From Lachnospiraceae bacterium P6A3 (GTDB lineage: Bacteria > Bacillota > Clostridia > Lachnospirales > Lachnospiraceae), in the NCBI GenBank assembly GCA_000702085.1, contig JNKP01000001.1, positions 806,001-870,000 on the forward strand: a stretch of DNA of 64,000 nucleotides. The letters are read 5' to 3'. Positions within the stretch are counted from its first letter, which is position 1. Each line of letters opens with the position of its first letter. Below, one piece after another: positions 7,072 through 45,791 of this stretch. A program made the translations under genes and the position numbers. The notes beneath the pieces are model-generated. The model worked only from the letters and a program-made list of their open reading frames with translations, searched no databases and was not told the DNA's origin.

Positions 7072-7143
7072 AGTGACAGTGGGGACGCTTCAGTTTTGTC
7101 ATCAAGTTTTTGATGACAAAACTGAAGCGTCCCCACTGTCACT
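7072..7143. repeat. Palindromic repeat, copy 1
   Basis: A 72-nt near-perfect palindrome with a stem of about 33 pairs and a 4-6 nt loop. Each arm reads GTGACAGTGGGGACGCT, then the variable TCAG, then TTTTGTCATC, with the exact complement in the other arm. It fills the whole gap between the convergent MATE and diguanylate cyclase genes, four bases from one stop and two from the other, so it may act as a two-way terminator or mRNA end-stabiliser. It is the first of six copies in the window. No transposase is encoded in it or near it. Confidence 0.92.
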
Positions 7144-16593: not shown

Positions 16594-16665
16594 TGTGACA
16601 ATGGGGACGCTTCTGTTTTGTCATCAAGTTCTTGATGACAAAACAGAAGCGTCCCCATTGTCACA
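16594..16665. repeat. Palindromic repeat, copy 2
   Basis: 72 nt with arms GTGACAATGGGGACGCT, variable TCTG, then TTTTGTCATCAAG, matched in the other arm. It differs from the family at one arm position (A for G) and the change is compensated (T in the other arm). ATTGTCAC is duplicated in tandem at its right edge (16657-16672). It lies 24 bases after the glmS stop, in the 200-base gap before htrA. Confidence 0.9.
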
Positions 16666-19833: not shown

Positions 19834-19902
19834 GTGACAGTGGGGACGCTACTTTTTTGTCATCAGAATTCTATGACAAAAAAGTAGCGTCCCCACTGTC
19901 AC
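19834..19902. repeat. Palindromic repeat, copy 3
   Basis: 69 nt. Arms GTGACAGTGGGGACGCT, variable ACTT, then TTTTGTCAT, complemented in the other arm; the loop contains GAATTC. It starts four bases after the stop of the GT2 gene on the minus strand and lies before the LCP promoter. Confidence 0.92.
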
Positions 19903-22283: not shown

Positions 22284-22374
22284 GGTGACAGCCGGGGACG
22301 CTACTATTTTGTCATCTGAGCGGTTGCAACTGCAGCCACTCAGATGACAAAATAGTAGCGTCCCCTCTGTCACC
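22284..22374. repeat. Palindromic repeat, copy 4 (extended loop)
   Basis: About 91 nt, the most divergent copy. Outer arms GTGACAGCCGGGGACGCT against a partner with one base missing and one mismatch; variable ACTA, then TTTTGTCATCTGAG, compensated. Where other copies have a 4-7 nt loop this one has an 18-base insert that itself folds (GGTTGCA / TGCAGCC with one G-T pair). It lies two bases after the phosphoglucomutase stop and 12 bases before the next start, and gives that ORF a spurious 34-residue upstream extension. Confidence 0.88.
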
Positions 22375-44433: not shown

Positions 44434-44506
44434 GGGTGACAGTGGGGACGCTACAGTTTTGTCACCGAATTCTGATGACAAAACTGTAGCGTCCCCACTG
44501 TCACCC
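44434..44506. repeat. Palindromic repeat, copy 5
   Basis: 73 nt. Arms GTGACAGTGGGGACGCT, variable ACAG, then TTTTGTCA, compensated; the loop contains GAATTC. One internal mismatch (C for T in the left arm) breaks a pair. Flanking CGC and GCG could lengthen the stem past a one-base bulge. It is the only copy not next to a stop codon: it lies about 100 bases upstream of thrH and 100 bases upstream of the RNA promoter at 44603. Confidence 0.9.
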
Positions 44507-44602
44507 TGCGTTTTCCGACTTGAATTGTCAGAATATTTTATCAATTACTTAAACGTTATCGAAATTATTTAGGGATTTTAAAAATATTTTTAGAAAAAGG
44601 TG

Positions 44603-44631
44603 TTGACAAGGTGAAATATTTAGATTATTAT
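44603..44631 (+). promoter_or_regulatory. Consensus sigma-A promoter with no protein gene downstream
   Basis: TTGACA (44603-44608), 17-base spacer, TATTAT (44626-44631). It is among the best promoters in the window, yet the next plus-strand sequence for 400 bases holds no ORF longer than eight codons. It is the main reason for calling a noncoding transcript here. Confidence 0.75.
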
Positions 44632-44636
44632 AGGCA

Positions 44637-45045
44637 CATAAAACAAAAGCGGATGAAAACAAAAACAAAATCTCATCTGACTTTTAGAAAAGGAGGACGG
44701 TCCGATGGGACACTGAGAAGTAACCCGTAAACAGTCTTTGGAGGGTGGACCAATGTACTAGCTGATATATAAACCACTAAAACCCGGAGCAACCGGATAA
44801 GATCTCGGAAAGAGTGAAAACACGACACAAGCATATATGCATATCGTCCTATGAACGCAGACTGCACCGTTTATATATGCATTCGGACGAACAGGTCGTA
44901 CGAAGAATGAAGCGATTTCAGAAGAGACGATACCGGGAGCCGATGGAGAAAATATAATACAGGAGGTATCCGCCAATGGATATTGAGGAACCCATCTACT
45001 AGGGGCGCCATTCGATGAAAGTTTTATCGGGTGGCGCCTATTAAC
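44637..45045 (+). ncRNA. Candidate structured noncoding RNA, about 400 nt, with three SD/micro-ORF units
   Basis: Transcript predicted from the promoter at 44603-44631. Pairings readable by eye: GATGA/TCATC near 44652 and 44674; GGTCC (44699-44703) with GGACC (44747-44751) enclosing ACTG (44712-44715) with CAGT (44732-44735); a CCGG-agcaa-CCGG hairpin near 44784; self-complementary GCATATATGC (44831-44840); and a strong 3' stem GGCGCCA / TGGCGCC (45004-45010, 45032-45038). Three units repeat the order GGAGG, a GG/CC-rich stretch, ATG, stop: ATG at 44705 (3 codons plus stop pattern MGH), at 44753 (MY) and at 44976 (MDIEEPIY). Repeat copy 6 begins six bases after its end and could terminate it. 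I cannot assign an RNA family. Confidence 0.45.
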
Positions 45046-45050
45046 ATGCT

Positions 45051-45125
45051 TAGGTGACAGTGGGGACGCTACGGTTTTGTCATCGAATTCTGATGACAAA
45101 ACCGTAGCGTCCCCACTGTCACCTA
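45051..45125. repeat. Palindromic repeat, copy 6
   Basis: 75 nt. Arms TAGGTGACAGTGGGGACGCT, variable ACGG, then TTTTGTCATC, fully complemented; the loop contains GAATTC. The outermost bases include the TAG stop of the zincin gene on the minus strand, so the gene ends inside the repeat. On plus it follows the candidate RNA directly and is the likeliest terminator for it. Confidence 0.93.
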
Positions 45126-45791
45126 CTCCATCAGATACCCGTGGTCATCCAGCCACTTTTTATGCTTCTTATAATCCGGCATCATGCTTTCAACTTCTGC
45201 CCAGAACGCCTTTGAATGATCCATATGAATTCTGTGACACAGCTCATGGATCAGAACATACTCAATTGATTCGGGAGGACACATCATAAGTCTCCAGGAT
45301 AAAGTGATCTTACCCGTCTCGGAGCAAGATCCCCACTTCGACTTTGCACCCGATATCCTGAGTTCCCTGTAGGTGATTCCCATTTCATAAGCCCTGTAAG
45401 TAAGCCTTACGGGAAGATATTCCTTAGCCCTTGCTTTCAGCCATCTTTCGTAAGATGCTTCATCTGCGCCTTCCGGAAAAATAAACTCATCCTGCCCCTT
45501 AACAATTCTTCCTCTTCCGGAAATTCTGATCCCGTATTCTTTTCCCAGATACAGCAGTTTTCCGCCGCCTTTGAACTCATGGGCTTTCAGATTCTCCGCC
45601 ATATTCAGAGCCTTCACGTAATTAAGCCTGATCCATCTTGTATGCTCTCGCATAAAAGAACGCACCTCCCCCTCCGATACGTGGGTCGGTGCGTTCACTA
45701 TAAGTGTACCCGTCTTGTCAAACTTCATGGACAGGCTCTTCCTGCGAGAATATATAACTTTTACCGGAATCCCGTCCATTATGGTATCCAT
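45123..45791 (-). CDS. YgjP/SprT-like zinc metallopeptidase domain protein (DUF45)
   Basis: 222 aa. The zincin motif is HELCHRIHMDHSKAFW (HExxH plus a downstream His), preceded by SKWGSCSETGKITLSWRLM, the invariant segment of the YgjP/DUF45 family. These small cytoplasmic proteins are predicted metal-dependent hydrolases of uncertain substrate. It follows coaX after one base, so it is in the panT-coaX transcript. Its stop codon is part of palindromic repeat copy 6. Confidence 0.88.
   Translation of the reverse strand: MDTIMDGIPVKVIYSRRKSLSMKFDKTGTLIVNAPTHVSEGEVRSFMREHTRWIRLNYVKALNMAENLKAHEFKGGGKLLYLGKEYGIRISGRGRIVKGQDEFIFPEGADEASYERWLKARAKEYLPVRLTYRAYEMGITYRELRISGAKSKWGSCSETGKITLSWRLMMCPPESIEYVLIHELCHRIHMDHSKAFWAEVESMMPDYKKHKKWLDDHGYLME

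Follow-up and report, generated by a model that had tools for sequence, protein, structure and literature searches.

The window, a 64,000-nucleotide stretch of the genome of the rumen organism Lachnospiraceae bacterium P6A3, carries on its forward strand a sigma-A promoter followed by a leader, two short ribosome-binding-like elements, a central structured domain, a last element and a terminal hairpin (Table 1). The promoter ranks best among seven promoter-like sites between 43500 and 46500, and the position of its −10 hexamer places the transcript start at about 44638. The transcribed stretch folds at −108.5 kcal/mol, compared with a mean of −87.75 kcal/mol for shuffled sequences (z = −3.74; none of 100 shuffles is as good). 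Each of the three elements consists of Shine-Dalgarno-like purines, a spacer of 8–9 nt, an ATG and an early stop. The next gene in the window is convergent to the RNA.

Table 1. Features of the RNA locus, in positions of the window
Feature	Position	Strand	Basis or conservation
Sigma-A promoter, TTGACA-17-TATTAT	44603..44631	+	11/12 consensus positions
5′ leader (CACATAAAACAAAAGC...GACTTTTAGAAA) with short local hairpin	44638..44689	+	sequence, predicted minimum free energy fold
Element 1, AAGGAGG-ACGGTCCG-ATG GGA CAC TGA (M-G-H-stop)	44690..44716	+	13/13 copies
Element 2, GGAGG-GTGGACCA-ATG TAC TAG (M-Y-stop)	44740..44761	+	13/13 copies
Central structured domain (GTGAAAACACG...)	44811..44913	+	helices ACGAC/GTCGT, GCAT/ATGC, CGTCC/GGACG, GCA/TGC
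Last element, GGAGGTATCCGCCA + 8-codon frame (MDIEEPIY)	44962..45002	+	start, length and in-frame stop in 13/13 copies
Terminal hairpin, intrinsic-terminator type	45003..45039	+	directly 3′ of the stop codon; covaries in relatives

A first-pass annotation of this DNA had described a strong promoter ahead of an unassigned structured RNA of about 400 nt with a GC-rich 3′ stem. The promoter, the structure and the stem are all confirmed by the ranking, the fold and the covarying homologues described below, and the RNA has no match in Rfam 15 at gathering thresholds. Its statement that no open reading frame exceeds eight codons was mistaken: the + strand holds ATG frames of 25 codons (44653–44730) and 19 codons (44851–44910) and a GTG frame of 47 codons (44814–44957), among others. 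The eight-codon frame at 44976–45002 nonetheless proved the most telling. The observation is largely right and its interpretation half right, and the RNA family is larger than the earlier finding.

Conservation of the RNA within the genus

A DNA search among 97 relatives, with a genus set of 31 genomes, recovered nearly complete copies of the RNA from 11 further members of the genus, with 72–89% identity; a twelfth homologue (L013) is very divergent and was first detected as short matches. Compensatory changes are present in these 12 further homologues, on whose existence the first-pass annotation had staked its reading. The genus alignment keeps the promoter, the three elements and the 3′ hairpin, with the promoter retained in all 13 copies and the leader motif CACATAAAACAAAAGC in 12 of the 13. 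An exact pattern search across 84,980 species returned 13 stretches, all in Lachnospiraceae, which are the 12 known ones and a partial copy (L042). Every one of the 13 full copies, window included, has the divergent gene thrH on its upstream side, and the other flank is ygjP in L001–L005 and coaX in L006, L007, L009 and L011. Nine congeners without a BLAST match (L086–L088, L090–L094, L098) carry no such RNA in the first 1000 bases upstream of thrH.

Despite stop-codon swaps, none of the three mini-frames changes its length or loses its in-frame stop in any of the 13 copies. Element 1 reads ATG GGA, one further codon and a stop (TGA or TAA) throughout the genus, giving M-G-H/N, and element 2 stops at TAG in eight copies and at TGA in five. 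The eight-codon frame of the last element (ATG GAT ATT GAG GAA CCC ATC TAC TAG, 44976–45002) ends in TAG or TAA across the 13 copies, window included, and starts with TTG in L013. Overlapping matches to the Shine-Dalgarno-to-start spacing number 6 in the window compared with 0.6 in dinucleotide shuffles (0 of 300 reach this count); the signal in L013 is weaker (4 compared with 0.9; 10 of 300 shuffles reach it). The first Shine-Dalgarno sequence is weak (GGAAGUAC) in five congeners (L008–L012). Elements matching the last one were found in other genera.

Covariation is also seen inside the RNA. Double changes occur at 8 of the 17 pairs of the central domain compared with 4.1 in shuffles, and 0 of 500 shuffles reach 8. 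Its alignment cells are paired at 95.4%, compared with 88.9% in shuffles and 18–38% in slid controls; its 12 pair types, against 12.0 in shuffles, show no excess. The domain was seen in the window's genus only.

A REP-like palindrome of about 70 bp with GTGACAGTGGGGACGCTAC arms recurs in the window at 7073–7142, 16595–16664, 19834–19902, 44436–44504 and 45054–45122, with a half copy at 22355–22373. Its centre is GAATTC in the two copies read, and two copies flank the small RNA gene. The copy after the RNA (about 45051–45125) is one of five complete inverted pairs plus one half found in the window at two or fewer mismatches. Its 16-base arm is missing from all 12 congener homologue loci, and a looser search with a 10-base piece gives a single match, in L004, at a distance from the RNA. 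The palindrome, a repeat of the window that had been proposed as a possible terminator, is therefore neither part of the RNA nor its terminator. The RNA's own hairpin, with a poor U tract in the window's genome, is the conserved 3′ end.

A family with a common layout

Beyond the genus we used two covariance models. R2, which describes the last element and hairpin, matches 76 of 397 Lachnospiraceae genomes at E ≤ 0.05. We read 48 of its loci (L155 and L179 overlap), discarded L158, L163, L170, L172, L176 and L178, and found the layout in whole or part in the rest. R3, a broader model from 42 sequences, matches 177 of the 397 sampled genomes and 152 of 334 genera at E ≤ 1e−4, an upper figure because matches near 1e−5 to 1e−6 include gene starts, coding DNA and terminators (L183, L184, L188). 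At E ≤ 1e−7 the count, made by eye from the genome table, is about 148 genomes; one doubtful match (L181) reaches 5.3e−9. As R3 was trained on members of the sampled set, the census is partly circular.

In a class-wide sample of 391 genomes, 45 match at E ≤ 1e−3, many of them through generic terminators. Among 19 loci from this sample the layout is found in L180, L182, L190 and L204, all Lachnospiraceae, and in L199, from a second Clostridia family (f59), while L191, L196 and L203 are uncertain. In f59 itself 17 of 81 genomes match at E ≤ 1e−3, and of the seven loci read, L199, L222, L224 and L225 carry the layout; L223, L227 and L228 were unconvincing on reading and were thrown out. L203 has a lone GGAGGTACAAGCCAATG...TAG before a hairpin and may be a minimal or divergent relative in another family of the class, and L191 and L196, with GGAGGTAACCTCCATTG and a stop inside the hairpin, may be divergent relatives in other families. 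Several genomes, G210, G351 and G127 among them, have two or three model matches, some adjacent; L179 holds two RNAs in tandem, and L251 has two strong model matches.

Of 100 loci, 13 of which belong to the window's genus, 87 have a promoter that matches the consensus at 10–12 of 12 positions, and 34 of these promoters are perfect; shuffled loci average 2.6 such promoters per 100, none perfect. The usual upstream unit, AGGUA-NNN-WCC, is complementary to the 16S rRNA 3′ tail and is present in one or more copies. A search expression located 218 element-like sites in 102 RNAs, some of which are noise, and gave one element in 22 of 100 loci, two in 56, and three to eight in 22. L242, L267 and L268 are among the RNAs with five or more upstream elements, which suggests that element copy number changes by duplication. 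We found no universal internal core between the elements, with no 9-mer commoner than in shuffles and sub-motifs in few loci: TGACGAGAAAG in 5 of 43 (L260, L266, L169, L173, L179; in the form GATATGACGAGAAAGTAT in L260, L169 and L173), and GTTACAGTAC or CTGAATA in smaller sets.

The last element has the consensus GAGGUAUAGUCCA-(A/U)UG-GAY. The search expression parsed its frame in 53 of 54 sequences (13 belong to the window's genus); L141 failed, and for L137 and L152 it picked out an element other than the true last one. Start codons among the 53 are ATG (37), TTG (15) and GTG (1), second codons GAT (36), GAC (9) and others (8), and stops TAA (29), TAG (21) and TGA (3); the frame is five codons long in 26, six in 9, eight in 15 and of other length in 3.

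The stop codon adjoins the terminal hairpin. When 50 bases after the stop were folded, pairing began at once in 57 of 68 loci, one nucleotide later in 10 and 8 nt later in one, a measure that leans to small distances; the stem base offers a better test. A stem of nine or more pairs follows 73 of the start-bearing elements, and in 56 of these the stop ends within −4 to +1 nt of the stem base, compared with 4 of 146 for the two other frames, a range chosen after −2 to +2 had given 38 of 73 compared with 10 of 146. The stop thus often belongs to the stem base itself. Across an alignment of 42 sequences of the family the hairpin has 232 double-change cells compared with 66.5 in shuffles, and 97.6% of its cells are paired compared with 57.4%, in an alignment fitted to the structure; double changes touch 14 of 14 pairs, a figure that does not discriminate alone (13.1 in shuffles). 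The end is U-rich in 58 of 68.

Upstream elements often have CCA, CCG or AAG at the start-codon position. Their first stop nevertheless falls after exactly two codons in the Shine-Dalgarno register in 65 of 121 start-less elements, where the remaining two registers give 5 and 14 of 121. Stops peak a second time four codons on in the −1 register (29 of 121). Outside the genus, 64 of the 77 upstream-type elements with a stop at two codons have no start codon. Whatever the function, two features call for explanation: the fusion of the last stop to the terminator, and the retention of stops where no start codon precedes them.

On comparison of sequences, the layout of promoter, elements, last start codon, stop at the hairpin and covarying terminator is well supported as that of a family to which the window RNA belongs. 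The evidence supports well a small RNA family, apparently uncatalogued and absent from Rfam 15, that is common across Lachnospiraceae and extends to at least one further family of Clostridia. Our search of the openly licensed literature found the RNA not described, which is weak evidence of absence, and the available portions of PMC8040213 and PMC8632094 do not describe it. A phage, plasmid or viral origin was rejected: six phage DNA records matched over about 37 bases with nothing relevant, viral contigs gave no match to three patterns, and plasmids gave none. That the family matches about two fifths of the sampled Lachnospiraceae genomes, with near-consensus promoters, and is nonetheless missing from Rfam 15 makes it worth attention.

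Predicted pairing with the 16S rRNA tail and candidate functions

The 16S tail from four relatives is GGCTGGATCACCTCCTTTCT; an exact pattern for it was not found in the window's own assembly. Elements picked by the search expression form predicted duplexes with this tail at medians of −15.1 kcal/mol (68 last elements) and −16.9 kcal/mol (83 upstream elements). Because the expression demands a purine core, the test was repeated without that selection. The 42 last elements located by the covariance model alone have a predicted median of −16.2 kcal/mol, compared with −9.8 kcal/mol for 50 gene ribosome-binding sites of the window (best of several starts) and −11.3 kcal/mol for the 22 of these 50 with a comparable purine core. 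For the composite string AGAAAGGAGGUACGGUCCA the predicted duplex extends over almost all of the tail, interrupted by a 2-nt bulge, and a change of the conserved CC weakens it by about 3.5 kcal/mol.

Measured against shuffles of the spacer alone, in which the purine core stays fixed, the natural sequences show a modest gain for the last elements (−15.1 compared with −13.05 kcal/mol) and a weak one for the upstream elements (−16.2 compared with −15.2 kcal/mol). Predicted duplex strength comes mainly from the purine core, with the second half of the complementarity supported rather than proved. As spacer-only shuffles lower the pairing little, the conserved GUA-NNN-WCC may serve something other than 16S pairing. 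Where the frame has five codons, the hairpin starts 18 nt downstream of the start codon's first base. An initiating ribosome reaches roughly that far, and the last unit would thus seem to be the smallest that allows initiation beside the terminator.

We propose that 44638–45039 encodes a free-standing, ribosome-binding RNA that serves as a decoy or reservoir, and we give this whole explanation an even chance of being right. Each element would bind the single-stranded 16S rRNA 3′ tail (UGGAUCACCUCCUUUCU), in a duplex more stable than that of an ordinary Shine-Dalgarno sequence. The start codon of the last element would permit initiation, and a ribosome would translate mostly five to eight codons before meeting a stop where the terminator stem begins. 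Most upstream elements have no start codon, but many keep an in-register stop, with which a chance initiation would end at once; with such built-in stops no ribosome would run off the 3′ end. With its near-consensus promoter, the RNA would serve 30S or 70S particles as a decoy or reservoir and so lower or buffer translation, in the way that 6S RNA acts on RNA polymerase. We infer the RNA's abundance, its ribosome binding in the cell and its decoy role; the family, promoters, elements, start and stop layout and covarying hairpins come from comparison, and the 16S pairing energies are computed values.

The RNA probably acts in trans because its neighbour genes are not conserved: the commonest Pfam families appear in only 4 of 113 flanking ORFs (126 ORFs listed, 41 loci). 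Counted against a decoy are the central domain, which is not common to other genera, the weak first Shine-Dalgarno sequence of L008–L012, the 22 of 100 loci with one element and the four-codon stop peak in the −1 register. The upstream elements may instead be protein- or RNA-binding motifs, as 64 of 77 outside the genus lack a start codon. Of the functions weighed, that of a ribosome decoy or reservoir is the most likely, with the chances for and against it about balanced, and a minigene or peptide comes next.

The RNA might instead be a very small mRNA, in which a peptide of 5–8 residues (M/L-D-x-x-V type) or the translation of a minigene itself matters, through peptidyl-tRNA drop-off, tRNA sequestration or an effect of the nascent peptide on the ribosome. 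The last frame does bear a signature of translation, its second residue is Asp through two codons (GAT 36 and GAC 9 of 53), and the M-Y and M-G-H/N frames are kept in 13 of 13 genus copies. The residues after Asp vary widely, however, as does the length, mostly 5–8; upstream-type elements outside the genus lack a start codon in 64 of 77, and five residues need no multi-element RNA of 400 nt. We consider this reading unlikely, and for the upstream elements universal translation of the mini-frames was rejected, start codons being mostly absent.

Repeated Shine-Dalgarno-like motifs, often with GGA, would also suit a sponge whose G-rich elements titrate C/U-rich small RNAs or a protein that, like CsrA, binds Shine-Dalgarno regions. 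A CsrA gene is present in 27 of the 31 congeners and in the RNA's own genome; RNA-bearing congeners have it in 10 of 13 cases, and those without a detected RNA in 17 of 18. Motif counts show a mild GGA excess in L002 (18 of 300 shuffles reach it) and L007 (13 of 300), but no clear excess in the window (15 compared with 12.0; 43 of 300 shuffles reach it) and none in L008–L012 (9–10 compared with 8.9–10.3). ANGGA is not enriched (3 in the window compared with 4.2), the shared core AGGUANNNWCC often lacks GGA, and the conservation of starts and stops would be left unexplained. A CsrB-like sponge was rejected on the motif counts and the CsrA distribution, and we regard titration in general as rather improbable.

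The good fold and the covarying central domain of the genus could point to an ornate structural RNA of the OLE, ROOL, GOLLD or HEARO sort, to which the first-pass annotation had likened it, with the fold as its function and the ribosome-binding-like elements incidental. Rfam gave no gathering match in the window or in 20 relatives and, in 16 relatives, sub-threshold, chance-like matches only. At E ≤ 10, 44560–45130 has seven matches, none to those four families: chance-like microRNA types to the palindrome, one match to the terminal hairpin and a weak rncO. Nor is there a cross-genus internal core, the shared parts being the short elements, the start and stop codons and the terminal hairpin, and we think such an RNA very unlikely. 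An equally slim chance attaches to a translation sensor, in which a ribosome translating the last frame would interfere with the adjacent terminator and translation capacity would set read-through: the stop does lie at the terminator base in most loci, but no downstream gene is conserved, the window's next gene is convergent, and ribosome loading is probably too slow for so close a terminator.

If the ribosome decoy or reservoir proves true, it would mean global control of translation by an RNA in a dominant bacterial family of gut and rumen.

Comparison with known systems

The large RNAs OLE, ROOL, GOLLD and HEARO share the size class and the setting in anaerobic Firmicutes; here the elements are modular and there is no large fold across genera. 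Leader-peptide attenuators resemble the last unit in that a short frame adjoins an intrinsic terminator, whereas this RNA is free-standing, has its stop at the terminator base and in most loci carries more elements upstream. For a cis element such as an attenuator or riboswitch, no conserved same-strand downstream gene was found at 41 loci (top Pfam 4 of 113 flanking ORFs). ARAGORN found no tmRNA in the window, nor did Rfam give a match to one.

Very short frames after a strong Shine-Dalgarno sequence are known from the lambda bar minigenes. The same arrangement appears in S. aureus uORFs (PMC13009471). Unlike these minigenes and short uORFs, the frames here lie in a separate, terminated RNA rather than in the leader of a gene.

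One possible lead concerns Clostridium phytofermentans, which we take to be a Lachnospiraceae-type host. PMC5171806 places a putative ncRNA, with no peptide detected, downstream of cphy2658, and gives its start site as the strongest of the genome on cellulose and corn stover. From that description alone the transcript could belong to the present family, and it is the sole possible lead from our search of the openly licensed literature.

The regulatory RNAs CsrB/CsrC and RsmY/RsmZ repeat a short motif over an SD-like sequence and have their own promoter and terminator, and CsrB is of similar size. In the present family, by contrast, the conserved unit continues into the spacer and the start and stop codons, and ANGGA is not enriched, nor GGA consistently.

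6S RNA mimics an open promoter and binds RNA polymerase. Its family (RF00013, a long rod with a central bubble) has no match in the window, nor at E ≤ 10 over 44560–45130, nor in 20 relatives. The likeness lies in the proposed principle, a free-standing mimic of a core machine's natural substrate that sequesters the machine, and the difference in the thing mimicked, here the ribosome-binding site. With somewhat less than even confidence, we suggest that an RNA class common in gut Clostridia parks or sequesters ribosomes through complements of the 16S tail and built-in stops. Such a class would do for translation what 6S RNA does for transcription, as a free-standing bacterial RNA regulator directed at the anti-Shine-Dalgarno end of the small ribosomal subunit.
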